A DNA stretch of 34,374 bases from Deltaproteobacteria bacterium (GTDB lineage Bacteria; Desulfobacterota; Binatia; UTPRO1): NCBI GenBank assembly GCA_020848745.1, contig JADLHM010000061.1, forward strand, positions 1 to 34,374, in the 5' to 3' direction. Positions 9,752 to 33,134 of the stretch are shown here, piece after piece. The position numbers were made by a program, and so were the translations under genes. Numbering within the stretch: the stretch's first letter is position 1; each line of letters starts with the position of its first letter. Below the pieces are notes generated by a model that ran no database searches, was not told the origin of the DNA, and saw only the letters and a list, made by a program, of their open reading frames with translations.

Positions 9752-12175
9752 ATGCCTGACAAGATTGACGAGGCGGATTACACCCGCCGAGGCACGCTGA
9801 AGGTCGACCAACCGGTCGCCCTTCCCGAAGTCGTCGACGTCTTCGTCGCGGGCGGCGGACCCGCCGGAACCGCGGCGGCGGTGCGCTGCAAGGAGCTCGG
9901 ACTCTCCTGCCTGGTCGTCGACTACGACGATCTGATGAAGCGCATCCGCGACTACCCGAAGGAGAAGCAGATCCTTCCGAGCTACGGGGGCGGCGACAAG
10001 CTCCAGTTCCCGGCCGGTGGCCCGATGCTCGCGGCGCTCGCGTTCGACGACATCGACAAGGACGATCTCGTGAGGGTGTGGAAGGCCAAGTACAAGGAGT
10101 ACGGCCTCACCGCGAAGATCGGCCACGAGTTCACGGGGCTCGACCGGTTGCCCGAGGGCGCGTGGAGCGTGCGTACGTGGAATCACCGGACCGGGGAGGA
10201 AGAGCGCTACCAGGCGCGCAACGTTCTCCTCGCGATCGGCGCCGGCGTGCCGCGCCGCTTCGACATCCCGGGCAACACCGACGGCATCGCGTTCCGTCTC
10301 GACGACGCGAAGGACTACGTCGGGAAACCCGCCCTGGTGATCGGCGGCGGCACGTCCGCGGCGGAGGCGGTCATCGCCATCTCGGGCGTCAAGACTGCGG
10401 CCGAGGACCAGACCGCGGTCTACTGGTCGTATCGCGGCGGCAGCATGCCGAAGGTATCGAAGGCGCTCTCGGACGTCTTCTTCACGGCGTACATCGGGAA
10501 CGGCAACGTTCGCTACCTCGCCTTCTCGGAGCCCGTGGCGGTCGTCACCTGCGACGACAAGCTCGACTACCTGTCGGTGCGGATCGATCGCAAGGTCTCT
10601 CAAGGCAGGCCGTGCGAGACCGTTCATCTCGAGTTCTCGAAGGACCAGGTGGTGGCCTGCATCGGCGAGGACCTGCCGGTGAAGCTCCTGCAGGGCTGCG
10701 GCATCAAGATTCCGCTCGTCAACAACCGCCCGCAGATGCTGGTGAACCACGACGGCGAGGTGTCGCTCACGGGGGTCTTCCTGGTCGGCGACGCGCGCGG
10801 GCCGAAGTACCTCCGCTGCCGCGACTTCGGCGACTCGAGCTCGTACGAGCAGGTCGTCGAGAAGCGCAACATCAAGGCCGCCATGGTCGACGCGGTGAAG
10901 GCGGTCGAGGTGATCGCCGCGCGCGCCGGCATGGACGTGCCGAAGTCCGACGTGGCGCCGACGGCGGCGCCCGCGCCGCCGAAACCGGCGGCGGCGGCCG
11001 CGAGCGCACCGCCGCCCGCGGCCGTCGTGCCGCCGGCGCCGGCGCACGCCGAGGCCGCCAAGCGTCCGGCGAGCGAGGTGCAGCTGGTGAGCCTCCATCC
11101 CGACGACTCGCCGGAGGAGACGTTTCCGCTCACGAAGGATCGAGTCGCGATCGGCAAGAAGGCGCCGGACATCGCCTGCGCCGACGACGTCTACATGGCC
11201 GACACGCACGCGCTCCTCGCCCGCCGGGACGACGAGTACGTGCTCGAGGACCAGAGCGGCGGGGCCGGCGTCTGGCTCCGCGCCAGAGGGCAGGCGGGCC
11301 GGCCGCTCGCGGCGAACGATCTCGTCTGGATCGGCGCGCAGATCCTCATGGTCGTGAAGCAGGGAAGCGGCTGGGCCGCCATCCACTTCAACGCCGAGGG
11401 CGTGCAGCGGGAGACCTATCCGATCCCCGACAAGGGTCTCATCGTCGGCCGGGTCGAGGCCGTGTTCCTCGACAAGGCGGATCTCAGCCTGTCGCGGCGC
11501 CACGCGCAGTTCCGCATCGAAGGCGGGAAGCTCGGCATCTTCGATCTCGGCAGCAAGAACGGCACGTACGTGAAGCTCCTGGCGCCGGCCCCGCTCGCGA
11601 ACGGCGACGAGTTCCGGGTCGCGAGCAAGCGGTTCCGCTTCGAGCGATTCGCGCAGGTGTCGAAGCTCCCGCCGAGCGACGTCGTCGCCGAGACGTCGGT
11701 CGCCGCCGCGCCGGCCGCTGCCGCCGCCGCGCCGGTCGCTGCCGCGGCGGCCGCCGCCGCGGCGGAGCCGGCCGCTCCCGCCGCGGCACCGGCCGCCGCC
11801 GCGGGCGGCCTCGTCGCCGCGCTCGACTACGAAGCGTACAAGCTCACGATCCCGGTCGCGGCGGATCAGGACCTGCTGCACGCGTATTTCCACGAGCTCG
11901 TCACGCGCTTTCCCGATTGCAAGGTCGGCAAGGACGGCGCGCCGCGCGATCACCACGAAGAGCCGCTCGATTGGGAGTGCAAGATCGGCCAGTGCGGGCT
12001 CTGCACCGTCGAGATCGTCGAGGGCGCCGACAACTTCGTGCCCCCCGACCCGGGCGGCATGGAACGTCCCACCATCGAGAAGGTGCGCCAGCTCGACTGG
12101 GATCCCAAGAAGTATCGATTGGCGTGCGTCGCGAAGATCAAAGGTCCCGTGAAGTTGACGATTCCACCCGCCTGA
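9752..12175 (+). CDS. FAD oxidoreductase - FHA - FHA - [2Fe-2S] ferredoxin fusion protein
   Basis: An 807-aa soluble multidomain redox protein. Residues 28 to about 395 are a two-dinucleotide-fold flavoprotein resembling the YpdA/thioredoxin-reductase-like class: FAD loop GGGPAGTAAA (34-43), NAD(P)H loop GGGTSAAEA (198-206) and closing FAD motif GVFLVGDARG (341-350). The redox CxxC of true thioredoxin reductase is absent. An Ala/Pro linker (about 400-440) leads to two FHA-like domains. The first (about 455-535) is degenerate. The second (about 560-630) keeps GR (566-567), SRRH (581-584) and SKNGTYV, as expected for phosphothreonine binding. After a second Ala-rich linker comes a plant-type ferredoxin domain (about 688-807) with C743, C748, C751 and C792 in CX4CX2C...C spacing. 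Likely path: NAD(P)H, FAD, [2Fe-2S], partner. No signal peptide, so cytosolic. First gene of cluster A. Domains are clear and the biological partner is not. Confidence 0.85.
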   Translation: MPDKIDEADYTRRGTLKVDQPVALPEVVDVFVAGGGPAGTAAAVRCKELGLSCLVVDYDDLMKRIRDYPKEKQILPSYGGGDKLQFPAGGPMLAALAFDDIDKDDLVRVWKAKYKEYGLTAKIGHEFTGLDRLPEGAWSVRTWNHRTGEEERYQARNVLLAIGAGVPRRFDIPGNTDGIAFRLDDAKDYVGKPALVIGGGTSAAEAVIAISGVKTAAEDQTAVYWSYRGGSMPKVSKALSDVFFTAYIGNGNVRYLAFSEPVAVVTCDDKLDYLSVRIDRKVSQGRPCETVHLEFSKDQVVACIGEDLPVKLLQGCGIKIPLVNNRPQMLVNHDGEVSLTGVFLVGDARGPKYLRCRDFGDSSSYEQVVEKRNIKAAMVDAVKAVEVIAARAGMDVPKSDVAPTAAPAPPKPAAAAASAPPPAAVVPPAPAHAEAAKRPASEVQLVSLHPDDSPEETFPLTKDRVAIGKKAPDIACADDVYMADTHALLARRDDEYVLEDQSGGAGVWLRARGQAGRPLAANDLVWIGAQILMVVKQGSGWAAIHFNAEGVQRETYPIPDKGLIVGRVEAVFLDKADLSLSRRHAQFRIEGGKLGIFDLGSKNGTYVKLLAPAPLANGDEFRVASKRFRFERFAQVSKLPPSDVVAETSVAAAPAAAAAAPVAAAAAAAAAEPAAPAAAPAAAAGGLVAALDYEAYKLTIPVAADQDLLHAYFHELVTRFPDCKVGKDGAPRDHHEEPLDWECKIGQCGLCTVEIVEGADNFVPPDPGGMERPTIEKVRQLDWDPKKYRLACVAKIKGPVKLTIPPA

Positions 12176-12204
12176 GCGCGCGCATTCACGGAGGGTCCGG
12201 AGCC

Positions 12205-14049
12205 ATGCGGAGAGCGGTGATGGGGGTGCAGTACGGGCGGTGGTCGGGATGGGTCGCGGCGGCACTGGTGACCACACTGGCCGCGTGCGGCGGCGGCGCC
12301 GGGCAGGGCGAGGGCCCCGACTCGGGTCCCCCGCCGGCGGCGACGGCGCCGAGGCTCGAGCGCGACGAGGTGCGTTCGCTCATGGAGCACGCGGCGCGGG
12401 CGGTCGACCGCGATCTGGTCGTCGCCGTGAGCGATCGCCGCGGCGTGATCCTCGGCGTCGGCGCGAACTTCGCGATCGACGCGACGGCCTGCGAAGCGCC
12501 GAACCCGACGCCGGGCGCCGATTGCGCGGTCGCGAGCTTCGCGACCCAGCTCGCGCGCACCGCCGCCTTCTTCAGCGCCGACCAGACGCCGCTCACCTCG
12601 CGCTCGATCCGCTTCATCAGCGACATCCACTTCCCGCCGCGCATCGACAACACCGGCGCGGCCGCGCTCTTCGGCATCGAGAACACGAACCGCGGGTGCA
12701 GCTTCGACGCGGCGCAGGGCGACGGGCTCTTCCAGGCGGGCCAGGTGGTCCCGCGCGCGCGGAGCCTCGCGGCGACGCTCGTCGATCTCGCCGGCGGCGC
12801 GCCGCTCGCTTGCGAGAGCGGCGGCTCGCGGTCCGGCTGTACGACCGGCATCGCGACGCTTCCGGGCGGCGTGCCCATCTTCAAGAGCGGGCGCCTGGCG
12901 GGCGGCATCGGCGTCTTCCTGCGCGGGGAGAGCCCGGGACCCGATTCCGAGGCCGCGCCCGAGGGCGACGTCGTGCTGCGCCGGCAGGACGGCGATCCGG
13001 ACTTCGACGTCGGCGAGTTCGCGGCGCGCGCCTTCGCCGGCGACGTGAAGGCCGTGGTGCCGACGGTCGTCAACAAGGGCCTCGTGAACGTCTGCGCCCA
13101 TGCCGAGATCGCGCGCCCCGCCTGCTGCACGGACCCGGTGGATCCCTGCACCTTCAGCATCCTGCCGAACGTGCAGCGCATCGATCCGGTGATCTTCATC
13201 GACGGCATCGAGGTTCCGGAGATCGCGAACGATCCCCCGGTCGAGGCCGGTGCGGGCCCCTTCGCCCGGACGCTCTCGTTCGTGATCGACCCGGCGGCCG
13301 CGCCCGCCTCGGGCATCGTTCCGGCCGGGTGGCTCGTCGGCCCCCGCGACTCGTCGCCGGGCGCCCGGCCGCTCGGTGCCGCCGAGGTGCGCGCCATCAT
13401 CGACACCGGCGTCGTCCGGGCGCGCGAGATCCGCGCCGCGATCCGGCTCCCGCTCGAGGAGCGCACCGCGATGATGCTCGCCGTCTCCGACACGAACGGC
13501 GTGCTGCTCGGCCTCTACCGCATGGACGACGCGACCGTGTTCTCGATCGACGTCGCCGTCGCCAAGGCGCGGAACGTCATCTGGTTCAGCAACCCGGCGA
13601 TCGACCCCGTCGACACGCTCGACAGCCCGGGCCTCGACGTCACCATCGGCGCGGCCTACGAGCCAGGCACGGCGATCACCAACCGCACGCTGAGCTTCGG
13701 CGCGCAGCCGCTCTTCCCGTCCGGCGTCGACGGGACGCAACCGGGCCCCTTCCGGCGCGTGTTCCTCTTCGATTCGGCGAATCCGTGCACCAACGGTCAG
13801 GAGCCGGAGAACGGACGGCAGAACGGCATCGTCTTCTTCCCCGGGAGCGCCCCCCTGTACCGCGACGGCGAGCTGATCGGCGGCTTCGGCGTCAGCGGCG
13901 ACGGCGTCGAGCAGGACGACATCGTGACGAGCGCGGGCGCGAACGCGCCGCCGGGCTTCGAGCCGCCGGCGGGGATCCGCGCCGATCAGGTGAAGGTGCG
14001 CGGCGTACGGCTGCCGTATCTCAAGTTCAACCGGCAGCCCAATCAGTGA
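12205..14049 (+). CDS. Lipoprotein with two GlcG/HbpS-like (DUF336) domains
   Basis: A 614-aa exported protein. The N-terminus has a short charged part, a hydrophobic stretch (WVAAALVTTLAAC) and a lipobox Cys at C28, followed by a Gly-rich tether. Two halves (about 53-245 and 395-585) each show GlcG/HbpS signatures: LVVAVSDRRGVILGVG and GVPIFKSGRLAGGIGVF in the first; MMLAVSDTNGVLLGLYRMDDAT, KARNVIWFSNPA and SAPLYRDGELIGGFGVSGDG in the second. Family members include heme- or cobalamin-binding proteins such as HbpS, so a heme-related role beside the cytochromes is plausible but not shown. Several extra Cys residues could form disulfides. The ATG at 12205 has GGAGG about 10 nt upstream, 29 nt after the preceding stop, so co-transcribed. 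Tandem domains in one lipoprotein differ from the usual small single-domain GlcG proteins. Confidence 0.8.
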   Translation: MRRAVMGVQYGRWSGWVAAALVTTLAACGGGAGQGEGPDSGPPPAATAPRLERDEVRSLMEHAARAVDRDLVVAVSDRRGVILGVGANFAIDATACEAPNPTPGADCAVASFATQLARTAAFFSADQTPLTSRSIRFISDIHFPPRIDNTGAAALFGIENTNRGCSFDAAQGDGLFQAGQVVPRARSLAATLVDLAGGAPLACESGGSRSGCTTGIATLPGGVPIFKSGRLAGGIGVFLRGESPGPDSEAAPEGDVVLRRQDGDPDFDVGEFAARAFAGDVKAVVPTVVNKGLVNVCAHAEIARPACCTDPVDPCTFSILPNVQRIDPVIFIDGIEVPEIANDPPVEAGAGPFARTLSFVIDPAAAPASGIVPAGWLVGPRDSSPGARPLGAAEVRAIIDTGVVRAREIRAAIRLPLEERTAMMLAVSDTNGVLLGLYRMDDATVFSIDVAVAKARNVIWFSNPAIDPVDTLDSPGLDVTIGAAYEPGTAITNRTLSFGAQPLFPSGVDGTQPGPFRRVFLFDSANPCTNGQEPENGRQNGIVFFPGSAPLYRDGELIGGFGVSGDGVEQDDIVTSAGANAPPGFEPPAGIRADQVKVRGVRLPYLKFNRQPNQ

Positions 14050-14091
14050 CGGCGGGTCGCGGAGGCGCGAGGTAGGCGCGAGCACGGTCCG

Positions 14092-14772
14092 ATGGCGAAG
14101 GACGGGGACGACAAGGGCTTCGACGAGCACACGCGGATCGGCGGCGCGCCGCCGAAGCTGCCGGGTATGCTGCCGGCGCCGCCGCCCGCCTCGTCGGCGC
14201 CGCCGGCGCTCGACGAGCACACGCGCGTGCAGTCGGCCCCGCCCCCGATGGCGCCGCGTCCGGCCGCGCCCGCGAGCCCGCCGCCGGCGGCCCCGGCCGC
14301 GGGCGGCGACTTCGCGGAGCGCACGATCCTGCTCTCCGACCTGCAGCCGCAGGGGGCGGCGCCGGCGCGCCTCCAGCGCATGCAGCCGCCGGGGCGCTCC
14401 GACATCGTCACGCTCGATCGTACGCACTATCTGATGGGCCGGCTGCCCTCCTGCGACCTCCGACTCTACTCGCAGACGGCGTCACGCGAGCACGCGCAGC
14501 TGACGGCTCGCGACGGTCGCTGGTACCTCACGCCGGTCACCGGAAAGGTCGTGCTGGTGAACGGCACACAGGTGAAGGAGGAAGTCCCCTTGACGCACAA
14601 AATGCGACTTCAGCTCGGAGGCGACGAGCTGCTCTTCCTCGACGAGAGCGGTGCTCCGGCGGTGCAGGAAGGACCGGCGGCGGGCGCGGTGCCCGGCGCC
14701 GATCGCTGGCTCGTGATCGCGATCGGGTTGCTGGTGCTGGCGGCGGCGCTGTGGATGTGGGCGGACCGGTGA
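14092..14772 (+). CDS. Tail-anchored FHA-domain protein with N-terminal DEHTR motifs
   Basis: A 226-aa protein with three parts. The Pro/Ala-rich N-terminus (1-100) holds repeated Thr motifs: FDEHTRI (T14), LDEHTRV (T44) and a related FAERTIL (T78). An FHA domain spans about 100-185, with MGR (115-117), SREH (131-134) and VLVNG where the NG of the fold is expected. A single C-terminal hydrophobic helix (about 205-222) should leave the rest in the cytosol. FHA domains bind phosphothreonine peptides. The repeated Thr sites look like kinase targets that the same or a neighbouring FHA could bind, as in the GarA/OdhI switch; that is inference. Its stop overlaps the start of the outer-membrane barrel gene (TGATG), tying it to the envelope part of the cluster. 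No kinase gene is in the window. Confidence 0.8.
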   Translation: MAKDGDDKGFDEHTRIGGAPPKLPGMLPAPPPASSAPPALDEHTRVQSAPPPMAPRPAAPASPPPAAPAAGGDFAERTILLSDLQPQGAAPARLQRMQPPGRSDIVTLDRTHYLMGRLPSCDLRLYSQTASREHAQLTARDGRWYLTPVTGKVVLVNGTQVKEEVPLTHKMRLQLGGDELLFLDESGAPAVQEGPAAGAVPGADRWLVIAIGLLVLAAALWMWADR

Positions 14773-16487
14773 TGGCCACCCGCGCGCGCTACGACGTCGC
14801 CCCGTTGGTCGCCTGCGCCGTGCTCGCGTGCGCGTTCGCCGCGCCGACGGCGCGCGCCGAGGACGCTCCCGGCGGCGGACCGAGCGTTACGATCGAGAGC
14901 CCGGCGGTCGGCAGCAACACGCCCGCCACCGAGCCCTTCGAGGACCGCTGGCGGATGGAGCTGCCGCCCTATCAGCTCAACGCCAAGGGCCACTGGTGGG
15001 ATCCCTACAACCAGAACGTCCTCAAGGGCGACATTCCGATCCTCGGCGAAGACATCTTCCTGAAGCTCACCGGCATTTCGAAAACGAGCGTCGAGGGTCG
15101 CGGGGCTCCGTCGCCGAGCGGGGTCTCCACCGAGGACCCGAGCAGCTTCGACTTCTTCGGGAACCGCAACGCGATCCTCTTCGATCAGAAGTTCGTGACG
15201 CGGTTCGAGCTGCAGAAGGGGCAGACCTCGTTCAAGCCGTTCGAGTGGCAGATCGTCCTCGAAGGCGCGTACGACGTGAACCTGCTCGCGACCGGCGAGA
15301 ACGGCATCGTCGACCCCGACGTCCGCGACGCGACCGACCGGCTCACGACCCACGCCGCGCTCCAGGAGGCCTTCGTCGAGATCCACCTGGCGGACACCTC
15401 GGTGAACTACGACTTCCTCTCGACGAAGATCGGCCGGCAGCCCTTCAACAGCGACTTCCGGAGTCTCCTCTTTTCCGACGTGAACCAGGGCATCCGCTTC
15501 TTCGGGAACGCCAACTCGAACCGCTACCAGTACAACCTCGCCTATTTCTATCCGGCCGAGAAGGACACCAACTCCGACCTCAATACGTTCGGGCTCCGCG
15601 ATCAGCAGATCGCCATCGGCAACCTCTACATCCAGGACTTCCTGAAGCTCGGCTACACGACCCAGTTCAGCTTCCACTATCTGAACGACGACGGGAAGGA
15701 CGCCGGCTTCGTCTTCGACAACCAGGGCTTTCTGGTGCGGCCCGACCCGGTCGGCGTCGCGCGGCCGCACGACCTCGACGTCTTCTATCTCGGGTGGACG
15801 GGGGAAGGGCACCTCGGCTGGGTGAACGTCAGCCACGCCTTCTACCAGGCGCTCGGCCACGACACGTCGAACCCGATCGCGGGACGCGACGTGAACATCG
15901 AGGCGCAGCAGGTGTTTCTCGAGCTCTCGATGGACCGCGACTGGATGCGCTATCAGACGTCGGTCTTCTGGTCGTCCGGCGACAGCGACCCGCGCGACGA
16001 CACCGCGCGCGGCTTCGACACCATCCTCGACAACCCGCAGATCATGGGCGGCAGCTTCAGCTATTGGCAGCGCCAGTCGATCCGCGTCACGGATCGCGGC
16101 GGCGTCGCGCTCATGCAGCGTAACAGCGTCGTGCCCGACCTCCGCAGCTCGAAGACCCAGGGCCAGCCGAACTTCGTGAATCCCGGCATCCTGATGGTGA
16201 ACGTCGGCGCGACCGCCGACCTCACCCAGACGGTGAGCCTCATCGGCAACGCCACCTATCTCCGTTTCGTCGACACCGAGCCGCTGCAGCTCCTGCTCAA
16301 GCAGCCCGACGTCCGGCAGGACATCGGCATCGATCTGAGCCTCGGCGTCGAGTACCGGCCCTTCCTCAACAACAACGTCATCGTGAAGGGCTTCGGCGCG
16401 ATTCTCCAGCCGTTCGGCGGCTTCAACGACATCCTGGAGAGCAACACGCTCTACCAGGTCGGCACGGAAGTGGTGCTGGTCTTCTGA
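14772..16487 (+). CDS. Outer-membrane beta-barrel (porin-like) protein
   Basis: A 571-aa exported protein with a Sec signal (helix VAPLVACAVLACAFA, probable cut after ARA near residue 30) and a body of alternating polar/hydrophobic strands typical of outer-membrane barrels. Examples are VTRFELQKGQTSFKPFEWQI, YQYNLAYFYPAEKD and TTQFSFHYLND. It ends YQVGTEVVLVF, a terminal Phe with alternating hydrophobics that fits a BAM recognition signal. No mature Cys is apparent, so it binds no c-type heme itself. It overlaps the upstream FHA gene by 1 nt and lies directly before the decaheme cytochrome. The pairing resembles porin-cytochrome conduits (MtrAB/PioAB type), but I cannot place it in a named porin family; a solute porin is possible. 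Confidence 0.78.
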   Translation: MATRARYDVAPLVACAVLACAFAAPTARAEDAPGGGPSVTIESPAVGSNTPATEPFEDRWRMELPPYQLNAKGHWWDPYNQNVLKGDIPILGEDIFLKLTGISKTSVEGRGAPSPSGVSTEDPSSFDFFGNRNAILFDQKFVTRFELQKGQTSFKPFEWQIVLEGAYDVNLLATGENGIVDPDVRDATDRLTTHAALQEAFVEIHLADTSVNYDFLSTKIGRQPFNSDFRSLLFSDVNQGIRFFGNANSNRYQYNLAYFYPAEKDTNSDLNTFGLRDQQIAIGNLYIQDFLKLGYTTQFSFHYLNDDGKDAGFVFDNQGFLVRPDPVGVARPHDLDVFYLGWTGEGHLGWVNVSHAFYQALGHDTSNPIAGRDVNIEAQQVFLELSMDRDWMRYQTSVFWSSGDSDPRDDTARGFDTILDNPQIMGGSFSYWQRQSIRVTDRGGVALMQRNSVVPDLRSSKTQGQPNFVNPGILMVNVGATADLTQTVSLIGNATYLRFVDTEPLQLLLKQPDVRQDIGIDLSLGVEYRPFLNNNVIVKGFGAILQPFGGFNDILESNTLYQVGTEVVLVF

Positions 16488-16528
16488 TGACGCCCATGCG
16501 GAGCAGGCGCGGCATGGGAGGGTGGACG

Positions 16529-19500
16529 ATGAGCGATCGAACGCGATGGATCGGGGTCGGTTTGGCGATCGCGCTGGGGCTGGCGCCGCTCGGAATGCGC
16601 GGCGATGCGGGCGCCGACGACACCGTCGCGGCGGCGGCCGAAGCCGCGGGCGAGATCCCGGACAGCGCCCCGAAGCTCCTGCGCCAGACGCAGGCCGAGG
16701 CCGACGCCAAGAGCGTCGGCTGCCTCTCCTGTCACCAGGGCATCGAGCCGATGCACGTCTCGGGACAGGTGAACCTCGGCTGCGTCGACTGTCACGGCGG
16801 CAACGGGGGCCCGCAGGCTCGCGGAGCCAAGCCGGGCACCGCCGAGTACGCGGCGGCGCGGCAGGACGCGCACGTGGCGCCCCGGCGCCCCGACGTCTGG
16901 CGTGATCCGAAGAACCCCGACCGCATCAGCTCGGCGAACCCCGAGCGCAGCTACGCGGCGCTGAACGAGGAGTCGCCCGAATACATACGCTTCGTGAATC
17001 CCGGGGACCTGCGCGTCGCGCCGGAAACCTGCGGCGGGTGCCACCTGAACGAGGTGCACCAGGTCGAGCGCAGCCTGATGACGACCTCGGCGCTCCTCTG
17101 GGGCGGCGCCGCGTACAACAACGGCATCCTGCCGGCCAAGCGCTACATCGTCGGCGAGTCGTACACGAAGGACGGGAAGCCGCGGAAGCTCAACACCGTG
17201 CCGCCGCCGACGCCCGAGGAGCAACGCAAGGGCGTGCTGTCGTTCCTCCTGCCGCTCCCGGCGTGGAACGTCGCGCAGCCTCCCGATCCGCTGCGCGCTT
17301 TCGAGCGCGGCGGCAAGATCGACCGGTCGGTCGTATCCGAGGTCGGCAACCCGGGACTCGGCCCGCTCCCCGATCTCCCCGGCAAGCCCGACATGAAGTT
17401 CGGCACGCGCGGACTCGGGACCGATCTCCGTATCAGCGCCGGCGTGCTGAACATCCAGAAGACGCGGCTCAACGACCCGCACCTCTCCTTCCTCGGCACC
17501 AACGACCAGCCCGGCGACTACCGCTCGAGCGGCTGCACCGGCTGCCACGTGGTCTATGCCAACGACAAGGATCCCGTGCACGCCGCGTCGTACGCGAAGT
17601 ACGGACACGACGGGCGCTACTTCGGCAAGGACCCGACGATCCCGAAGGACGAGTCCGGCCACCCGATCGAGCATCGCCTGACGCGCGCGATCCCGACGAG
17701 CCAGTGCATGGTCTGCCACATGCATCAGCCGAACTCGTTCGTGAACACGTTCCTCGGCTACCAGATGTGGGACTACGAGACCGACGGACAGCTGCTGTGG
17801 TCCGCGGAGCAGCGGTACCCGACGGTCGACAAGCCGTGGCCGCTGAACGTCGCGGACTACGAGCCGATGCACGCGAGCCTCCAGCACAACCCCGAGGAGG
17901 CGGCGGCGCGCGGGCTCTGGACCGACCGCGAGTTCCTGAAGAACGTCAGCGCGCTCAACAGCAAGACCAAGGAGACGACCTTCGCCGACTACCACGGCCA
18001 CGGCTGGATCTTCCGCGCCGTCTACAGTCAGGACCGCAAAGGCAACCTGCTCGACAAGAACGGCAAGATCGTCGATCCGAACGATCCGAAGAAGTTCGAC
18101 AAGGCGGTGCACCTGAAGGACATCCACCTCGAGAAGGGGATGCACTGCGTGGACTGTCACTTCCAGCAGGACGTCCACTCGAACGGCAAGATCTACGGGG
18201 AGTATCCCGACGCGATCGAGATCGGCTGCGCCGACTGCCACGGTACGGTCAGCACCTGGGCGACCGTCACGACGAGCGGCCCGGCCGCGCCGGACGGCGG
18301 TACGAGCCTCCTCACAGGCCTCACGCCCTGGGGCGAGCGCCGCTTCGAGTGGATCGGCGGCGAGCTCATCCAGCGCTCCATGTTGGAAGAGGGCAAGGAG
18401 TGGGAGGTGCCGCAGGTCGTCGACGTGATCGACCCGCTCTCCAAGCACTACAACGAGAAGGCGCGCCTCGCGAAGACGATGCGCGCCGACGGCAAGACCT
18501 GGGGCGACGTGCCCGAGAAGGCCGAGGCGCTCGCGCACGGCACCGACACGATGTCGTGCATCTCGTGCCACACGTCGTGGGTCACGAGCTGCTTCGGCTG
18601 CCACCTGCCGCAGCAGGCGAACTGGAAGATCGCGAAGAAGCACTACGACGGCGGCGAGACCCGCAACTGGACTTCGTACAACCCGCAGGTCCTGCGCCAC
18701 GACATCTTCATGCTCGGCAGGCACAGCACGGTGAAGGGCCACACGATCGCGCCCGTCCGCTCGTCGAGCGCCGTCATCATCAGCACCACCAACGCCAACC
18801 GCGAGCGCCAGTACTACCAGCAGCCTCCCGTGTCGGCGGAAGGGTACAGCTCGCAGGCGTTCAACGCGCACTTCGCGCACACCGTGCGCGCCAAGGAGAC
18901 GCGGCAGTGCGACGACTGCCACGTCTCGGCGAGCGGCGACAACAACGCCTGGATGGCGCAGGTGCTGACGCTCGGGACGAATTTCGTGAACTTCGTCGGC
19001 CGCTTCGCGTGGGTCGGCGAGGGCGGGCACGGCCTCGAGGCCGTCGCCGTGACGGAGTGGGACGAGCCGCAGGCGGTGATCGGCTCGAACCTGCACCGCA
19101 TGGCGTATCCCGACAACTTCCAGAGCCACCTCGACCACGACCTCGAGCTGCAGGAGGCGTACGAGCACCCCGGGGTCGACCTCACGAGCCGCGCGGTCGA
19201 CGTGCAGTCGGTGCAGCTCCGCGGCGAATACCTCTACGTCGCGAACGGCCCCGGCGGCTTCCGCGTCTTCGACGTCGCCAACACCGACAACAAGGGCTTC
19301 TCGGAGCGCGTCATCACCGCGCCCGTGTCGCCGCTCGGCCAGCGCGCCTACGTGAAGACGCCGTGGGCGACCGGCGTCGCGCTCCCGACGAACCAGCCGA
19401 TCCACTACGGGCGCGAGCGCAACCCCGTGAACGAAGAGCAGCCGATGCACCCGCTCTACAAGTACGCCTACGTGAGCGACAAGGTCGAAGGACTCGTCGT

Positions 19501-23118: not shown

Positions 23119-23233
23119 CGCCACGGGGCGCCCTCGGATCGGTTGAGGGGATGGCACGTCAGCGGCATCAATTTTCCTACGTGTTCAACCACTGATGATG
23201 CATGTCGTTCTTTACGGCGGCGCAGCGTATGTG

Positions 23234-23260
23234 CAAACTCGGATCTGTAATCCTAGTTTG
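23234..23260. promoter_or_regulatory. Inverted repeat upstream of the AAA/DUF4143 ATPase gene
   Basis: CAAACTCGGAT, a 5-nt spacer CTGTA, then ATCCTAGTTTG: 11-bp arms with one mismatch, ending 30 bp before the ATPase start. It sits in AT-richer sequence than its surroundings. It could be an operator, an attachment site or the end of the acquired unit. Confidence 0.5.
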
Positions 23261-23290
23261 CTTGCGTGAGGGGGTCCCCCCTGATAACGC

Positions 23291-24526: not shown

Positions 24527-24653
24527 ACCGCGCGGGTCGTTCGCGGAGCGCTGCGAGCGAGCCGCCGTGTAGACGTCGGATTCGAGCAGGGCCCGCAAAC
24601 AGCTCGGAGGCATTTTCAGCGCAAGAACGGAGTCGCCCGACGCAGAAAGGCTT

Positions 24654-25073
24654 TCACAATGCCCGGACCACCTCCAAGCTGAACTCGCGCACGCGTCGAA
24701 TGGCTCGGAAGTCGTCGCCGTCCGCCGTACAGAGGGTGGCTCCGAGCTGACGGGCCGTGAGGGCGATGAGCACGTCGTTTACGAGGGATGCCCGGCTCAC
24801 CTCGCGTCCAGTCATTCGTAAGCCCTGAAGGACGAGCCCCGCGTCGTCGAAGACCGTCGGGGAGGGAGCAATCAGTCTCTCCGCCGCGGCATGCGTTCGG
24901 GCGAGCTGATCGAGCAGACGTCGCGCCGGCCGCGTTCGCGCTCCTACCCGGAGCTCCATCTGGACGACCGCGCTCAGGTGCCGGACGAATCCCGGGCCGA
25001 TCATCAAAGCCTCGTGCCGCCCGCGATTGAACCAGTCCACGTAGAGATTGGTGTCCAGAATCACTTTCGTCAA
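24654..25073 (-). CDS. vapC: VapC-type PIN-domain ribonuclease toxin
   Basis: A 139-aa PIN-domain protein, the usual VapC length. The acidic metal-binding residues are visible: D7 in VILDTN, the Glu in VVQMELRVG, the Asp in NDVLIALTARQLGA, and Asp residues in CTADGDDF. VapC toxins are Mg-dependent endoribonucleases that cut tRNA or rRNA when free of antitoxin. The ATG start overlaps the stop of the upstream antitoxin gene by 4 nt (ATGA), the standard toxin-antitoxin arrangement. Convergent with the DUF4143 ATPase gene, leaving 127 bp with nothing recognisable. All key residues look intact, so it is probably functional; the RNA target is not readable. Confidence 0.9.
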   Translation of the reverse strand: MTKVILDTNLYVDWFNRGRHEALMIGPGFVRHLSAVVQMELRVGARTRPARRLLDQLARTHAAAERLIAPSPTVFDDAGLVLQGLRMTGREVSRASLVNDVLIALTARQLGATLCTADGDDFRAIRRVREFSLEVVRAL

Positions 25074-25261
25074 CGTCGGAACACGTCGTCGAAGCCGCCG
25101 ACGTTCCTGCCGCGCTTGAGGACGCGGATCAGACGCTCTTCCGCGAGCACCATGTCGAGGGCTCGTTCCAGGGTTTCCTGCTCGGTCTTGGTGCCGAGCG
25201 CTCGGCGCGCCTGGTCGATCTTGCGCTGATCGAGCTTGAGGTGCTTATGGCGTATCGTCAT
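25070..25261 (-). CDS. vapB: VapB-type antitoxin
   Basis: A 63-aa antitoxin. The N-terminal part (MTIRHKHLKLDQRKIDQARRALG) looks like the DNA-binding and dimerisation half of VapB proteins, with helix TEQETLERALDMVLAEER. The C-terminal tail (RGRNVGGFDDVFRR) would neutralise the PIN domain. The ATG at 25259-25261 is chosen; a GTG at 25265-25267 would add two residues. It precedes vapC with a 4-nt overlap. VapB-VapC complexes usually repress their own promoter, and a short palindrome lies just upstream. Confidence 0.82.
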   Translation of the reverse strand: MTIRHKHLKLDQRKIDQARRALGTKTEQETLERALDMVLAEERLIRVLKRGRNVGGFDDVFRR

Positions 25262-25268
25262 GTACACA

Positions 25269-25279
25269 ATCTAGTAGAT
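25269..25279 (-). promoter_or_regulatory. Palindrome at the vapBC promoter, possible operator
   Basis: ATCTA-C-TAGAT (minus strand) is a perfect 5-bp inverted repeat around one base, 8 nt upstream of the vapB ATG. It overlaps TACTAG/TAGATT, the most likely -10 region, with TTGCGG further upstream. It is a plausible VapBC autorepression site. Confidence 0.35.
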
Positions 25280-25416
25280 CGTGAACACCGACCGCAACGC
25301 GATTCCGGCGGTACCGATACGAGCATCGGCTGCTGCGAGAGACCCGGGATCTCGAGCCCCCGAAGAGCATCCTCGGGGGCGGCACATCAGCGGGGGGATC
25401 ACGCCCACTACGCCCG

Positions 25417-26745
25417 TCACTTCAGCTTCGCGCCCACCGCCGCCAGGCTCGCCGCGAACTGGTCCGGCTTGTATGCGAAGCGGTCGATGGCATCGAGCAT
25501 CGTGCGCATGTCGTTCTTGATGGCGTCGCAGCGGCCGCCCCAGGCCGGACGGCAGAGGGCGCGGATCGCGAGGTAGGACTGCTCGGGACCGCCCGTCGTC
25601 CACCACCAGGGCGTGCTCGGGTTGTCGATGTCGACGCAGTTGGAGCTCTTCGAGCGGCTGAAGCCGAAGCGTTCGGCGAGCTTGGAGCGATCGCCGCTCG
25701 CGGTGACGCGGGCGAGCATGCGCCGCGTCGCACCCTGGTCGATCGTGCCGATCTGGCTCTCCAGCGAGCCGAGCCAGCCGACCATCGCGTCGGACTTCTG
25801 CTTGGCGGCTTGCGGGCTCGACGGGACGGCGGCGGCGACGCCGTTCCAGAGGCCGGCGAGCTCGTCACGCTTCCCGGTCGCGACGCCCGAGAGTACGGCG
25901 TCGACCATGAGGTAGTGGCCGCGCGCCTGGCGGAGCGCGTCGTCCACGAGCTTGTGGTGACAGGTGTAACAATTGCGGTCGGCGAAGTGAGGGAACTGAT
26001 CGAGCGACTGGTAATTGCTGCCGTCGGCGCGTTCGGAGAGCATGCGGAGCGCGTCACGGAGCCCGATGACCTGACCGAGCGCCCAGATCGTCGGATCGAC
26101 GCTGAACGCGCCGGCGGGCAGCTCGTCCTGGTCGTCCCAGTGCTTCATGATCTGCGCGTACGCCACCAGCTCGAACTGGAGGGGCGGGTGGCCGCCGGCG
26201 ACGATCTCATGGTCGATTGCGACGTGGCAGCGGGCGCAATTGCGGGCGCGCAGCACGTAGTCGTCGTTGTCGTAGAAGCCCTTCGAGAAATACTGGCGCC
26301 GCGTCTGCGGCCAATCCTTCTGCGAGTGGGCTTCGAGCCAGAGCTCGGCGGGGCCGTGACAATGCTCGCAGGTGACGCCGTCGCTCTTCTTGTAGCGCCC
26401 GCCCGTCGTGGCCTGCGCGGCGGGGGCGTGGCAGGCGAGGCACTTCTCGCTCTGGGTCGCCTCGATGCCCATGTAGCGGGCGATCGTCTTGCCTTCGTCG
26501 GTCTCGAGGGTGCGGTAAGCGCGGGAATGGCGGTCGATGTTGGTGTTGATCCACTGCGTTCGCGCCGACTTCCACGGGCGCCACTTCGGGTCGGGCTTCT
26601 CGCGGCTCGGGAGACCGGCGCCGTGGCACGTCGGATTGCCGCAGCGGCCGTCGCCGAGGAACCCAGGGCCCGCCGCCGCGGGCGTCGCCGCCGTCAGGAT
26701 CCCGAGGCCGACCAAGGCGATCGGGAGGAACGTCGTACGCATCAT
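25417..26745 (-). CDS. Cytochrome c554-like multiheme c-type cytochrome
   Basis: A 442-aa exported cytochrome: signal peptide MMRTTFLPIALVGLGILTAA, cut near AAA-G (about 25). Four canonical heme sites lie at C102 (CLACH), C126 (CEHCH), C170 (CARCH) and C259 (CYTCH). A fifth candidate at C35 (CGNPTCH) is a CX4CH variant near the mature N-terminus. Spacing and the HCHGPAE segment fit the cytochrome c554 family (PF13435), small periplasmic electron carriers or oxidoreductases. The last 150 residues are helical with no further heme motif. Start at the first of two adjacent ATGs (26743-26745), with GAGGGTGGGG in front. Divergent from the deoxyhypusine-synthase-like gene by about 96 bp. It could shuttle electrons between the membrane and outer-membrane decahemes encoded on either side; that is inference. 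Confidence 0.85.
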   Translation of the reverse strand: MMRTTFLPIALVGLGILTAATPAAAGPGFLGDGRCGNPTCHGAGLPSREKPDPKWRPWKSARTQWINTNIDRHSRAYRTLETDEGKTIARYMGIEATQSEKCLACHAPAAQATTGGRYKKSDGVTCEHCHGPAELWLEAHSQKDWPQTRRQYFSKGFYDNDDYVLRARNCARCHVAIDHEIVAGGHPPLQFELVAYAQIMKHWDDQDELPAGAFSVDPTIWALGQVIGLRDALRMLSERADGSNYQSLDQFPHFADRNCYTCHHKLVDDALRQARGHYLMVDAVLSGVATGKRDELAGLWNGVAAAVPSSPQAAKQKSDAMVGWLGSLESQIGTIDQGATRRMLARVTASGDRSKLAERFGFSRSKSSNCVDIDNPSTPWWWTTGGPEQSYLAIRALCRPAWGGRCDAIKNDMRTMLDAIDRFAYKPDQFAASLAAVGAKLK

Positions 26746-26841
26746 CCCCACCCTCGGCGCGCCGAGTAACACGCGCTACGCGCCGGCCGCAACCGGCACG
26801 CAGACTGGTGCGGCATCGGAATATCGCCTACAAGCGGCGCC

Positions 26842-28950: not shown

Positions 28951-28974
28951 CGGCTGGGAAGCGGGAGTGGGCGG

Positions 28975-30843
28975 GTGACACGACGACACGCCGATGGTCT
29001 CGAAGGCCAGTGGCTCTCACTCGAAGAGGTCGGCGAGCTCGACTTCTTCAAGAGCAGCAAGCGCGCGAAGCTGAAGCTTCCGACGCTGCTCGGGGCCGCG
29101 CCGGACGCCGAGGAGCCGGCCATCAAGGCCGTCGTGCGGCGCGAGTACGGGCCCGGCGAGATCATCTGCGAGGCCGGCGCCTACGGCTCGACCGCCTTCC
29201 TCCTGGTCGAGGGCAGCGCGACCGCGTTCCTCCCGGAGCAGGTCGAGGCGAAGGGCATCGAGGGACGCACGCGGAGCTCACTTGCCCGGCTCTTCGACGC
29301 CTTCCGGCGCCGCACGCGGAGCGCCGAGCGGACGCCCGGACGTCCCGAGGTCGGCGAGGTGAGCCGCTACGCGACGCTCGCGCACGACCGCCGCCTCGGG
29401 CCCGTGGCGATCCGGCCCGGCGACATCTTCGGCGTCGACACCTGCGTCAATTTCTACCCGCGCGAGGCGACGGTGCGCGCCGAGACCCGATGCGTCGCCC
29501 TCGAGATGCTGCGCTCGGTGCTCGACACGATCCGCGGCGCCGGCGACGCCGTCGACGAGGCATATGCGGCGCGCGCCATCCGCAGTACGCTGCATCAGAG
29601 CGCGCTGCTCGCGGAGTTGAGCGCCCCGCAGCTCGAGACGCTCGCGGCGGCGAGCGCGCTCCTGACCCCCGACTCCGACGGCGTCTCGGACGGTGTCGTC
29701 TACGCGCAGGACGCGGCGGCCGACGCGCTGTATCTCGTGCGCGCCGGCACCATCAAGATGTCGCAGACGAAGGCCGGCGGCGAGTTCATCTTCACCTACC
29801 TCGGCCGCGGCGGGGCCTTCGGCTTCGAAGCGATCATGCCGGCGCGGGCGCGGACGCGGCTCGTCCTGCGCTGCGCGTCGCATCCGACCCTCTTTCGCGA
29901 GATGCCGGTCACGAAACCCGTCACGATCGGCCGCAGCGAGTCCTGCGACATGCCGGTGCCGAAGGAGAGCCGCGCGGTCGGACGGCGCCACTGCCGCGTC
30001 GAGGAGCGGGACGGCGACCTCTGGGTCGTCGATCTCGACAGTACCAACCACACGCTCCTGAACGGCGAGCGCATCCGCGAGGCCATCCTCACCGAGGGCG
30101 ACCGCATCGGCGTCGTCGAGTACGTCTTCGAGGTCGGGCGCGAAGACGTCACCGCGGCCGAGGCGCCGATGGCCGTGCGACTCGCGTGCGCGTCGGGGCT
30201 CGACGGCTTCGAGGTCGTCCGCGTCCCGGCGGACGCGCTCGCCCGCCTCGCCGAGGCGAGCGCGCCGGCCCTCGCCGCCGCGACCCGGGCCGGGCGAGCG
30301 CTCGAGGCGGCCGCGTTCAGCCGCTCGGCGAACGAGCAAGCGATGCTCGAGGCGGCGGTCGATCTCAACCTCTACAACTCACAGAACGTCCTGCTCATCG
30401 ACCTCGACCGCTGCACGCGCTGCGACGAGTGCGTGCGCGCCTGTTCCGACGCCCACGACGGCGTGGCGCGCTTCACCCGCGACGGGCCGCGCGTCGGACG
30501 CTATCTGGTCACGATGGCGTGCCGTTCCTGCACCGATCCGAAATGCATGGTCGGTTGTCCGGTTGGCTCGATCCGTCGCGAGGACTCGCTCGAAATCAAG
30601 ATCGAGGACTGGTGCATCGGCTGCGAGCGCTGCGCGAGCCAGTGTCCGTTCGGAAACATCAATATGGTCGAGCTCGCCGAGCTGAAGAAGCCGCCGCCGC
30701 CGCGCGAGGGTGTGTCGCTGCGCGCCACGGTCTGCGACCTCTGCGCCGGCTACGACGGCCCCAACTGCGTCTACGCCTGTCCCCACGACGCCGCGATCCG
30801 CGTCGCCCCCGGCGCGTTTCTCGCGCCCTCCGACCTCCGGTGA
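28975..30843 (+). CDS. Cyclic-nucleotide-binding / FHA / four-[4Fe-4S] regulatory electron-transfer protein
   Basis: A 622-aa cytosolic protein with an unusual order. A cNMP-binding-like domain (about 50-185) has YGPGEIICEAGAYGSTAFLLVEG and PGDIFGVDTC, with a 45-residue basic insert (about 92-137). A second (about 205-430) has ALYLVRAGTIKM and LGRGGAFGFEAIM, then an FHA module (about 305-390; TIGRS, GRRHC, DSTNHTLLNG), then resumes with VRLACASGLDGFEVVRVPAD, the closing strands of a cNMP fold. The FHA therefore appears inserted inside it. The C-terminal part (about 470-615) is a DmsB/NrfC-like ferredoxin with 16 Cys in four groups: 480/483/486/490, 516/519/524/528, 547/550/553/557 and 587/590/598/602. 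It would carry electrons between a soluble donor and the membrane cytochrome b, whose gene overlaps it by 4 nt (GTGA). Domains are clear; control by cNMP or phosphorylation is inferred. GTG start with GGGAG upstream. Confidence 0.87.
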   Translation: MTRRHADGLEGQWLSLEEVGELDFFKSSKRAKLKLPTLLGAAPDAEEPAIKAVVRREYGPGEIICEAGAYGSTAFLLVEGSATAFLPEQVEAKGIEGRTRSSLARLFDAFRRRTRSAERTPGRPEVGEVSRYATLAHDRRLGPVAIRPGDIFGVDTCVNFYPREATVRAETRCVALEMLRSVLDTIRGAGDAVDEAYAARAIRSTLHQSALLAELSAPQLETLAAASALLTPDSDGVSDGVVYAQDAAADALYLVRAGTIKMSQTKAGGEFIFTYLGRGGAFGFEAIMPARARTRLVLRCASHPTLFREMPVTKPVTIGRSESCDMPVPKESRAVGRRHCRVEERDGDLWVVDLDSTNHTLLNGERIREAILTEGDRIGVVEYVFEVGREDVTAAEAPMAVRLACASGLDGFEVVRVPADALARLAEASAPALAAATRAGRALEAAAFSRSANEQAMLEAAVDLNLYNSQNVLLIDLDRCTRCDECVRACSDAHDGVARFTRDGPRVGRYLVTMACRSCTDPKCMVGCPVGSIRREDSLEIKIEDWCIGCERCASQCPFGNINMVELAELKKPPPPREGVSLRATVCDLCAGYDGPNCVYACPHDAAIRVAPGAFLAPSDLR

Positions 30844-31748
30844 GACTCAACAAGGATCACCGCGGCTGGCTCGTGTTCACGATCGTCGCGACGGTCGTCG
30901 GCGCGGTGAGCTATCGCATGTACGTCGCGGCGAGCCCGTACGGAGCGTCGGGAGGCAGCTGGCCCGGACTCGCGTACGGCATGCTCGGGACGCTCGCGAT
31001 GCTCCTCGCCGGCCTCCTCGCGGGACGGAAGAAGGTGCGCACCCGGCGGATCGGGCCGGCGCGCGCCTGGATGCAGATGCACATCTGGCTCGGGATCCTC
31101 GCCGTGCCGCTGATCCTCTTTCACGCCGGCTTCCGGCTCGGCGGCGCCCTCACGACGACGCTCATGGCGCTGTTCGCGGTCGTCACGCTGAGCGGCCTCT
31201 TCGGGCTGGCGCTCCAGCAGTACCTGCCGGCGATCATGACCGAGCGCGTTCCCCTCGAGACGCTCGTCGGCCAGATGGACCACGTGCGCGACGGGCTCGC
31301 GACCGACGCGTACGAGCTCGTCGCGAGCATCGCGGGCATCGTTCCCGAGGCCGCCGCGGAGCAGGCCAGGCTCGCCGCCGAGCAGGCCGCCCTGCAGGCG
31401 CGGCCGGGCAACTGGAAGGCCGTCACGCGGAAGACCCCGGCGACCGATCCTGTGCCCGAGGCCGCGCTGCTCAAGGACGTCTACCTGCGCGAGATCCGCC
31501 CGTATCTCCTCCGCGACGCCCGCACGCGCACCAATCCGCCCGACATCCTCACCCTCGCCGTGCGGACGCCCGAGGAGTGGGCCCCGAAGCTCGAGCGCCT
31601 GGCGGCCATCTGCGAGGAGTCGTACCAGCTCGCGGTGCAGCGCCGCCTTCACGACGCGCTGCACGGCTGGCTCTTCGTCCACGCGCCGCTCTCGTTCGCG
31701 CTCTTCGTGCTCGCGGCGTTCCACATCGTCATGGCGCTCAAGTACTGA
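30840..31748 (+). CDS. Membrane cytochrome b-like protein with two HX13H pairs
   Basis: A 302-aa integral membrane protein with about five helices (10-28, 46-62, 80-97, 106-125, 277-298). Helix 3 carries H81 and H95, and the last helix H281 and H295. Both pairs are spaced HX13H, the pattern that holds two stacked b-type hemes in cytochrome bc1 and ferric-reductase proteins. Between helices 4 and 5 lies a long soluble stretch (about 128-270), Ala/Glu-rich then basic, perhaps docking the Fe-S protein. I cannot assign a named family. It likely passes electrons between the upstream [4Fe-4S] protein, quinone and the downstream decaheme. The GTG start at 30840 overlaps the previous stop (GTGA), and the next gene begins 12 nt after its stop, so these form one operon. 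Confidence 0.8.
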   Translation: MRLNKDHRGWLVFTIVATVVGAVSYRMYVAASPYGASGGSWPGLAYGMLGTLAMLLAGLLAGRKKVRTRRIGPARAWMQMHIWLGILAVPLILFHAGFRLGGALTTTLMALFAVVTLSGLFGLALQQYLPAIMTERVPLETLVGQMDHVRDGLATDAYELVASIAGIVPEAAAEQARLAAEQAALQARPGNWKAVTRKTPATDPVPEAALLKDVYLREIRPYLLRDARTRTNPPDILTLAVRTPEEWAPKLERLAAICEESYQLAVQRRLHDALHGWLFVHAPLSFALFVLAAFHIVMALKY

Positions 31749-31760
31749 GCCGGCGTACCG

Positions 31761-33134
31761 ATGGCACGGAACAGCAAAGATCTCGCGAAACGTCTCCGCT
31801 TCGACCGCTTCCCGCGTCCCGATTTCTTCCGACGCTGGTACTGGCTCGTGGGCATGCTGTTCGTCGTCATCGGCGGCGCCGCGTGGTGGGCGCTCCACGC
31901 CGGCACGAAGCAGCGCCAGTACCTGCCGGGACCGGTGTCGCAGGGGCACGCGAGCTTCGGCGACCGCTGTGAGACCTGCCATGCCCCGTACGCCGGGGTT
32001 CCGACCGAGGCGTGCCTCGGCTGCCATACCGACCGCACGCACTCGAAATTCGAGGTGAAGGCGCCGGAGTGCGCTTCCTGCCACGTCGAGCACCGCGCGA
32101 CCGGCGTGTTTCTCGCCGTCTCGAACGCGAGCTGCGTCGATTGTCACGGCGAGCTCGCGTCGACGCGCGAGCAGCCCGAGATCCAGCACTCGATCCGGAC
32201 CTTCGCCGACCACCCGGAGCTCGGGCCGCTCCGCGCCGGGCGCCGCGACCGGGCCGCCGTCCGGTTCGATCACAAGATCCACCTGTCGAGCCGCAAGATC
32301 GATTCCGACGACACGCTCTCGTGCGTCACGTGCCACGTGCCCGCGAAGGACGGCGCGCTCATGCTGCCGATCGACTTCGAGCGGCACTGCAAGAAGTGCC
32401 ATGCGCAGTCGGGGCTCGGCCCGGACTCGTCGGTCGAGGTGGTGCACGAGGCGCCCGACGTCGTGCGCGAGGACCTGAAGGCGAAGCTGCTCTTCGCCGC
32501 CGTGAACAACCCCGACGGCATCTTCGGCTCGACCGATCCGGGCCTTCCGGGCCGCGTCCGCCGCGACCCGCTCGATGCCTCGATCTCCCTCGCCGCGTTC
32601 ATCGACCCGACCAACCCGAAGAGCGCGCTCGCCAAGGCCGAGGCCAGGCTCTACCAGCCGCTCGACCCGAACCTCGGCGACGGCGCCTCGTCGCTCCTCG
32701 ACGCCAACAAGTACTGTTTCTTGTGCCACGACGAAGACGGCACGCGCGCACCGGGCGACCTGCCCAAGATCGAGCCGACCGAGATCCCGACGCGCTGGCT
32801 CGTGCACGGCGAGTTCTCGCACCGGGCGCACGACCTCCTGACGTGCGAGCACTGCCATCCCGACGTGCGCGAGAGCGCCGAAACCATAGACGTGAACCTC
32901 CCGAAGAAGGACGTCTGCCAGCGCTGCCACATCGACGACGAGACGCAGTCGGCGGGCGCGAGCTGCATGCTCTGCCACCTGTACCACGACACCAGCAAGG
33001 ACCACGTGCTGCGGGATGCGCGGCGCAAGGAGATCACCATCGAGGCGATCTTCGGCAAAGAGGCGCCGCGGGCTCAGACGCCCACGCGGCCCGGGTCGAC
33101 GAGACCTGTGCCCTCGCGCTCGCCGCCGAGCTGA
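31761..33134 (+). CDS. Membrane-anchored decaheme c-type cytochrome, 3' end altered by an IS element
   Basis: A 457-aa protein with a basic N-terminus, one uncleaved helix (about 27-46, WYWLVGMLFVVIGGAAWW) and a periplasmic domain with ten CXXCH sites at 70, 85, 104, 125, 188, 210, 319, 362, 386 and 402. Extra His residues (HKIH, HRAH) can be distal ligands. It resembles NapC/cytochrome c7-type chains that take electrons from a membrane quinol-linked partner, here the HX13H cytochrome b encoded 12 nt upstream. The natural coding end is probably lost: after about residue 437 the tail (AQTPTRPGSTRPVPSRS) is Pro/Arg-rich and read out of frame through the 3' end of an IS21-type istA. All ten hemes precede the junction, so function may survive. 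Confidence 0.87.
   Translation: MARNSKDLAKRLRFDRFPRPDFFRRWYWLVGMLFVVIGGAAWWALHAGTKQRQYLPGPVSQGHASFGDRCETCHAPYAGVPTEACLGCHTDRTHSKFEVKAPECASCHVEHRATGVFLAVSNASCVDCHGELASTREQPEIQHSIRTFADHPELGPLRAGRRDRAAVRFDHKIHLSSRKIDSDDTLSCVTCHVPAKDGALMLPIDFERHCKKCHAQSGLGPDSSVEVVHEAPDVVREDLKAKLLFAAVNNPDGIFGSTDPGLPGRVRRDPLDASISLAAFIDPTNPKSALAKAEARLYQPLDPNLGDGASSLLDANKYCFLCHDEDGTRAPGDLPKIEPTEIPTRWLVHGEFSHRAHDLLTCEHCHPDVRESAETIDVNLPKKDVCQRCHIDDETQSAGASCMLCHLYHDTSKDHVLRDARRKEITIEAIFGKEAPRAQTPTRPGSTRPVPSRSPPS

Follow-up and report, generated by a model that had tools for sequence, protein, structure and literature searches.

Known conduits and the locus under study

In the main text of He et al. (2017, PMC5566968), PCC4 is presented as a predicted porin-cytochrome cluster with heme counts of 4, 5 and 10, quinone is proposed as its electron donor, and the inner-membrane protein (IMP) of the PCC3/PCC4 type is defined by WX3HX13H motifs on transmembrane helices (TM) 3 and 5 and an SGxxG motif on TM4. 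Known porin-cytochrome conduits have been discussed as quinone-fed respiratory wires, and no post-translational on/off control of electron entry was found in the literature searched. Here a locus sharing half of this architecture was analyzed on contig C61 of the 4.88-Mb draft genome of a Deltaproteobacteria bacterium belonging to Binatia; the window is this entire contig, 34,374 bases long. Its two gene clusters, A (A1 to A5) and B (B1 to B3), together with a gene for a c554-like cytochrome between them, would on balance encode a conduit of the porin-cytochrome type in which intracellular signals govern the transfer of electrons from NAD(P)H in the cytosol to the cell surface, as judged from their domains and motifs.

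The inner half of the locus is close to PCC4 as outlined in that main text. B2 carries the motifs of the IMP definition and is, like the PCC4 protein, a 5-TM IMP; B1 precedes B2, as an Fe-S gene (PF13247) lies directly upstream of the IMP in PCC4 subgroup II; and a decaheme and a tetraheme cytochrome are present in both. In the outer half, by contrast, the decaheme-LVIVD protein A5, the AlgE-like barrel A4 and the HbpS lipoprotein A2 are found where PCC4 has a pentaheme cytochrome and a porin, so that the heme counts here are 4 (c554), 10 (B3) and 10 (A5), with no pentaheme. Because half is shared and the hemes are 4/10/10 instead of 4/5/10, the locus is not a PCC4 member as defined; simple identity with PCC4 was ruled out by the differing outer half. 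Clusters with 4, 5 and 10 hemes (L191-L199) form a separate, more distant group, in which the Fe-S protein carries cyclic-nucleotide-binding (cNMP) folds in all four cases checked. Judging by their numbers of hemes, their IMP and their genes, and not by accessions in common, we infer that these clusters correspond to the PCC4 described by He et al. Neither "FHA" nor "cyclic" appears as a word in the main text of that paper (He et al. 2017, PMC5566968), the supplement of which may draw such domains. A literature search returned no paper joining FHA, multiheme and cNMP proteins and nothing relevant on LVIVD and cytochromes, and the signal-sensing part of the locus seems not to have been described previously.

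Three other known systems are partly similar. The Geobacter extHIJKLMNOPQS genes also encode a porin, several multiheme cytochromes and an inner-membrane b-type cytochrome, but the inner part of ext is of Rieske/bc type, no cNMP/FHA entry protein has been described for it, and A5 scored 87.3 bits (its homologues 65-76 bits) against a cut-off of 800 for the ExtM family NF040943. With MtrAB, MtoAB and PioAB the locus shares the concept of a trans-outer-membrane barrel with a decaheme cytochrome, whereas A4 matched no Pfam family and has AlgE as its closest fold, and A5 matched no MtrA-type family. The route from NAD(P)H through FAD and two b hemes (HX13H pairs) across the membrane to an outside acceptor is that of the NADPH oxidase/ferric reductase family; here, however, Fe-S clusters are interposed, c-type cytochromes lead onward, and B2 reached 16.6 bits for the ferric reductase family PF01794, below the cut-off of 28, although its HX13H pairs exist.

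Conservation of clusters A and B

Full-length A1 and B1 were found in the same nine of 148 genomes of the class and in no others (hypergeometric P 1.4e-14), and the core genes stand together in five of the nine (G147, G094, G144, G084 and G085). In G084 and G085 the distance between A1 and B1 is about 1.7 kb, with the c554 gene alone between them, and in G144 the c554 gene links cluster B to cluster A; since it joins the two clusters in these relatives, the c554 gene was assigned to the core. The first-pass annotation had expected A and B to co-occur across genomes and to be adjacent where an island that now separates them is absent. The co-occurrence proved to be perfect within the class, and adjacency was seen in G084, G085 and G144. 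The common role it had suggested for A and B agrees with their co-occurrence in nine of nine genomes and with the finding that A1 and B1 form one polypeptide in 37 of 50 distant homologues. In the alphaproteobacterial sample (289 genomes of the class of L090), A5 was detected in 20 genomes, all of them among the 27 with strong B2 matches (P 2.6e-25). An independent distribution of the two clusters, named beforehand as the outcome that would speak against a single system, is contradicted by the 9/148 match and by this alphaproteobacterial co-occurrence of A5 and B2. Clusters A and B thus very probably constitute one conserved conduit system, and the window holds nearly all of the conserved gene set. 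Three of the seven FHA domains of the genome lie in this 34-kb contig against 0.05 expected (P 2e-5), which indicates that their clustering is not due to chance.

A single scan with an A5 alignment gave at least 554 candidate stretches encoding an A5 relative, and the best 80 loci were compared. These were distributed over Binatia, Nitrospirota, Chlorobi/Ignavibacteria, Acidobacteriota, Rokubacteria and Alpha-, Beta- and Gammaproteobacteria and included isolates of Parahaliea, Steroidobacter, Limnobacter and Sphingomonas; a close named A5 relative (66-68%) was a 'Candidatus Binatia' metagenome-assembled genome (MAG). In the 39 loci longer than 20 kb, the HbpS-like protein was present in 37, the barrel in 39, the Fe-S protein in 32, B2 in 32, B3 in 34 and c554 in 25. 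A5 was also found on 13 plasmid records of Sphingobium and Sphingopyxis, where the genes are annotated mostly as 'hypothetical protein', and the A5 plasmid of S. herbicidovorans was typed as conjugative. On this conjugative megaplasmid, pMSHV (L151), the set adjoins two-partner-secretion genes (ShlB/FhaC-type) and metallophosphoesterase genes. A single-operon version of the set occurs in Parahaliea (L125), which, with cultured hosts such as Parahaliea mediterranea, Steroidobacter agaridevorans and S. herbicidovorans, makes the system directly testable.

Protein components

All parts named in the first-pass annotation (cytosolic FAD/[2Fe-2S] and [4Fe-4S] entry proteins, a bis-heme-b membrane protein, an anchored decaheme, a c554-like cytochrome, an outer-membrane barrel and a decaheme-propeller) were located in the sequence at the coordinates given, with one correction at the tail of B3. 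The genes of both clusters are on the forward strand. A1 (9752-12175), assigned by Pfam/NCBIfam matches and co-occurrence, is a cytosolic FAD/NAD(P)H oxidoreductase (PF07992, 1.4e-18) with an FHA domain (3.7e-13), an FHA-like stretch and a C-terminal plant-type [2Fe-2S] domain. A2 (12205-14049), which was absent from the earlier parts list, was identified here as a lipoprotein by its HbpS-like (haem-binding/degrading) domain (PF03928, 5.7e-17) and adjoins A4/A5 in 58 of the 80 loci. A3 (14092-14772) combines an FHA domain (PF00498, 9.7e-13) with a C-terminal membrane helix; it was found in four of the five relatives with a complete locus and had no match in the fifth, G144. A4 (14751-16487) is predicted to be an 18-strand outer-membrane beta-barrel (AlphaFold pLDDT 84). 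Its sequence had no match in PDB, and the top PDB fold match of its model was the alginate exporter AlgE (Foldseek E 5.5e-17, Z 28); no MtrB-type entry was among the fold matches listed, and fold comparison alone does not prove a difference. A5 (16487-20434) is an exported decaheme cytochrome with an LVIVD beta-propeller (PF08309, 2.5e-25). It has 10 CxxCH motifs and, in the alignment, more than 10 conserved extra His, enough for bis-His ligation, and 10 hemes are found in 65 of 80 homologues. The function of A5 could not be taken from its fold, for which AlphaFold gave a pLDDT of just 68 and PDB matches to generic propellers only. The sole match of an A5 profile among PDB sequences was to a short heme segment in nitrite reductases with eight hemes.

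B1 (28975-30843; Pfam/NCBIfam) is a cytosolic electron-transfer protein with two cNMP folds (PF00027, 61.7 bits against a cut-off of 27.5, in two stretches), an FHA domain (1.3e-15) and four [4Fe-4S] motifs; the Fe-S family PF13247 is weak in the window's B1 (0.0055) and was found in 44 of 50 homologues. It had been claimed that FHA domains occur in both clusters and cNMP folds in one, and this holds: FHA (PF00498) is above the 20.7-bit cut-off in A1, A3 and B1 (50, 49 and 58 bits), and both cNMP folds are in B1. The usual G-R, S-R-x-H and N-G residues are retained in the FHA domains of A1 and A3, as judged by eye. B2 (30840-31748), the bis-heme-b inner-membrane protein of PCC3/PCC4 IMP type, contains WMQMH-X13-H, SGLFG and WLFVH-X13-H. 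Both W-motifs are kept in 52 of 53 homologues, and the invariant residues W76/H80/H94 and W276/H280/H294 include four His, as many ligands as a pair of b hemes would need. B3 (31761-33134) is an inner-membrane-anchored periplasmic decaheme cytochrome. Besides its 10 CxxCH motifs it has nine additional His with a conservation of at least 85%, as would be expected for mostly bis-His hemes; in 23 of 50 homologues its cytosolic end, before the membrane helix, carries a fused FHA domain. The decaheme proposed for this reading frame is thus present, whereas the last ~45 bases of the frame (33090-33134) belong to an inserted IS21-type sequence. The conserved c554-like gene (25417-26772, reverse strand; PF13435, 3.3e-11) encodes a periplasmic tetraheme cytochrome and is a cluster member in the relatives as well.

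Interchangeable NAD(P)H-type modules

The entry proteins occur as fusions or with other reductases in related loci. In Parahaliea maris, one protein of 828 residues contains the A1-type FAD reductase, two cNMP folds and four [4Fe-4S] motifs, and among the 50 distant homologous Fe-S proteins cNMP folds were present in all 50 and the FAD reductase, as an A1-B1 fusion, in 37. In Acidobacteria and relatives (L085, L099, L065, L067 and others) the FAD protein is replaced by NuoE-F and a NuoG-like domain fused to two cNMP folds and [4Fe-4S] motifs. A third module, a FAD_binding_6/NAD_binding_1/Fer2 protein, was found in one PCC4-type cluster (L192); the other clusters of the L191-L199 group contain a gene of similar size to this reductase gene. 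Since three unrelated reductase modules of NAD(P)H type (Pyr_redox, NuoEF/NuoG-like and FAD_binding_6/NAD_binding_1/Fer2) serve the same core, the electrons are likely to come from the pool of NAD(P)H and not from quinone. At L200 (7422-18522) and L202 (4793-13472), the inner half of the system is joined to a pentaheme cytochrome and a probable barrel in a PCC4-like manner; read from gene content, this is an exchange of the outer-membrane module.

Signalling genes and cNMP pockets

The first-pass annotation had advised looking for associated Ser/Thr kinase and nucleotide cyclase genes, and in relatives a kinase, PP2C and FHA-fused cyclases were indeed found beside the cluster. The neighbours of the core are PP2C and a cyclase-FHA fusion in G147, PP2C and an FHA-GAF-cyclase in G085, an FHA-GAF-cyclase, a kinase and two PP2C in G084, a kinase and PP2C in G074, and PP2C, a double-FHA membrane protein and a kinase in Parahaliea. 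In G094 a Ser/Thr kinase with a C-terminal WD40 propeller lies between B1 and c554 (L052 9183-12389). Enrichment was calculated for 29 whole genomes (128 Mb), with distance counted from A5; positions were transcribed by hand from search tables from which the weakest FHA and cyclase matches had been left out. Within 10 kb of A5, 23 FHA matches among those listed were counted against 0.83 expected (13 genomes; P 2.5e-25), together with six PP2C against 0.30 (P 7e-7) and, among the matches listed, four cyclases against 0.48 (P 1.5e-3). Within 13 kb, seven cyclases among the matches listed were counted against 0.61 expected (P 3.5e-6).

The canonical phosphate cassette FGEM...RRxAT is found in most B1-type homologues, with the Glu present in 48 of 50 aligned. 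In other Binatia B1 proteins (alignment with rows G094 and G107 left out), V, L or I stands at the position of this Glu. The loss is consistent in the Binatia lineage whose B1 gained an FHA domain, where a switch from nucleotide to phospho-control is possible.

Proposed electron path and alternative explanations

In the proposed path, NAD(P)H would reduce the FAD of A1, from which electrons would pass to the [2Fe-2S] cluster of A1 and the four [4Fe-4S] clusters of B1 and then, crossing the inner membrane, to the two b hemes of B2. B2 would pass them to the anchored decaheme B3 and on to the periplasmic tetraheme c554-like protein, which would supply the outer-membrane barrel A4 with its decaheme-propeller A5, and A5 would reduce an extracellular acceptor, either ferric iron or another oxidant. 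The sensor domains are placed in or beside the cytosolic entry step, as CRP-type folds fused to the Fe-S protein and as FHA domains on A1, B1 and A3 (or on B3 in Proteobacteria), and genes for cyclases, PP2C and Ser/Thr kinases adjoin. These domains would act by switching the entry complex or by assembling it. Because the conserved extra His would suffice for bis-His hemes, B3 and A5 appear to fit better as wires than as enzymes. Outward electron flow is held to be probable, because the NAD(P)H modules are interchangeable and such flow would run with the membrane potential.

In the opposite direction, Fe(II), Mn(II) or a cathode outside the cell would feed electrons through A5/A4 and B2 to the quinone pool, the FAD protein then being a side branch or a source of NADH by reverse flow. 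Inward flow has been proposed for PCC3 and PCC4 (He et al. 2017, PMC5566968), the latter having the B2/Fe-S/decaheme half in common with the locus, and the isolate name of one relative, a Haliea MAG (L116), points to a biocathode. However, we consider this direction unlikely: in 37 of 50 homologues the Fe-S protein is directly fused to a cytosolic flavoprotein of NAD(P)H type, which is elsewhere replaced by NuoEF or another reductase, inward flow to NAD+ would be uphill, against the membrane potential and with no evident coupling, and many of the organisms with A5 are not known as metal oxidisers. It is quite improbable that the multihemes act, in the periplasm or at the surface, as a reductase of one defined soluble compound (a nitrogen, sulfur, selenite or tellurite oxyanion) instead of a general conduit and that the CRP-like and FHA folds are structural. 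The c554 family does occur in nitrogen metabolism, and the heme half of A5 weakly resembles ExtM, which belongs to the Geobacter ext cluster together with ExtI, a porin with an effect on the reduction of selenite and tellurite (PMC5877670), but no recognisable nitrite, sulfite or hydroxylamine enzyme is among the conserved genes and the ligation possible in B3 and A5 is wire-like; moreover, most homologues keep a canonical cNMP cassette that a purely structural fold would not need.

The conduit could also be real and ungated, its signal domains localising or assembling the entry complex constitutively and the kinase, PP2C and cyclase genes standing nearby for other reasons. This is a possibility to be taken seriously, though not the expected case. 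It is in keeping with the degenerate cNMP pockets of the window's lineage, with the richness of Binatia genomes in cyclases (12-21 each) and with some genomes that lack detectable FHA and PP2C entirely (G157 and G158). On the other side stand the canonical FGEM...RRxAT cassettes of most homologues, the FHA-fused cyclases directly adjoining the cluster and a signalling-gene enrichment that spans phyla. Signal gating of the conduit, argued from domains and neighbours, is somewhat favoured.

Several points weigh against the outward, signal-gated conduit as drawn. In the window's B1 the cassette reads FGVD...PRE, with the Glu lost and the Arg kept, and the second pocket is degenerate; cNMP binding by this protein is therefore doubtful, and "cNMP-gated" looks weaker for the window's lineage than for the wider family. 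The FHA domain of the same protein has Gly where the canonical Ser stands. Phospho-signalling appears a likelier switch than a cyclic nucleotide in this lineage; it is not universal, since the conduit-bearing Alphaproteobacteria G157 and G158 have no FHA or PP2C detectable genome-wide. A5 may sit at the surface instead of inside A4, because the modelled 18-strand barrel is small compared with the larger MtrB-type sheath. The flow direction is argued rather than observed, as sequence alone does not fix it, and the Poisson and hypergeometric tests assume that genomes are independent.

The occurrence of the set in hundreds of candidate stretches across many phyla suggests that export of electrons from NAD(P)H through an entrance that senses signals may be common, also among genera regarded as aerobes (Sphingobium, Steroidobacter and Parahaliea). 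More tentatively, and with slightly less than even confidence, the system may represent a widespread class of NAD(P)H-driven trans-envelope export lines that extends to everyday aerobes of soil and sea and to a conjugative plasmid. Cyclic nucleotides and Ser/Thr phosphorylation would switch the entry step of these lines, and their input and outer-membrane modules would be exchangeable; such a line would be the bacterial counterpart of a regulated NADPH oxidase, with a cytochrome wire as its last part.

Insertions and neighbouring genes

At the end of the window, an IS21-type sequence (33090-34374, forward strand; istB 33288-34097), recognised by contig comparison, replaces the last codons of B3, runs to the contig end and stands between B3 and the genes for PP2C and cyclase-FHA. 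The copies of these two genes in the window's genome are on contig C133, the cyclase-FHA gene being 97% identical to that of G147. The homology with G147 is interrupted exactly at the junction of B3 and PP2C, and contigs C61 and C133 share 98 identical bases at their ends; these facts fit an insertion of ~10 kb with an IS21 element between B3 and PP2C, the join itself being inferred. The FHA-cyclase and PP2C genes would thus apparently lie about 10 kb past B3.

The first-pass annotation had regarded a Cys-rich gene, an island and hldD as interruptions, and all three lie outside the conserved set. The island (23121-25409; 2.3 kb), a DUF4143 ATPase gene and a PIN-domain toxin-like gene, is absent from the sister genome G147, which keeps an empty site with the homologous flanks ~67 bp apart, and was therefore interpreted as an insertion. 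G147 does share the haem genes, the Cys-rich gene, the deoxyhypusine-synthase-like gene and hldD; hldD and its neighbours were matched in G147 only, of G147, G094, G144, G084 and G085. The hldD, deoxyhypusine-synthase-like, Cys-rich and haem-biosynthesis genes and the island were rejected as parts of the system, being near the cluster in the same genus only. The haem-related genes ccsA, hemA, hemC and cobA-hemD (5062-9657) immediately precede cluster A and, among the compared relatives, are common to G147 only, which is of the same genus. The secreted Cys-rich protein (20665-23055), between A5 and the island, is confined to this genus among the compared loci and is 76% identical to its G147 copy, compared with ~90% for its neighbours.

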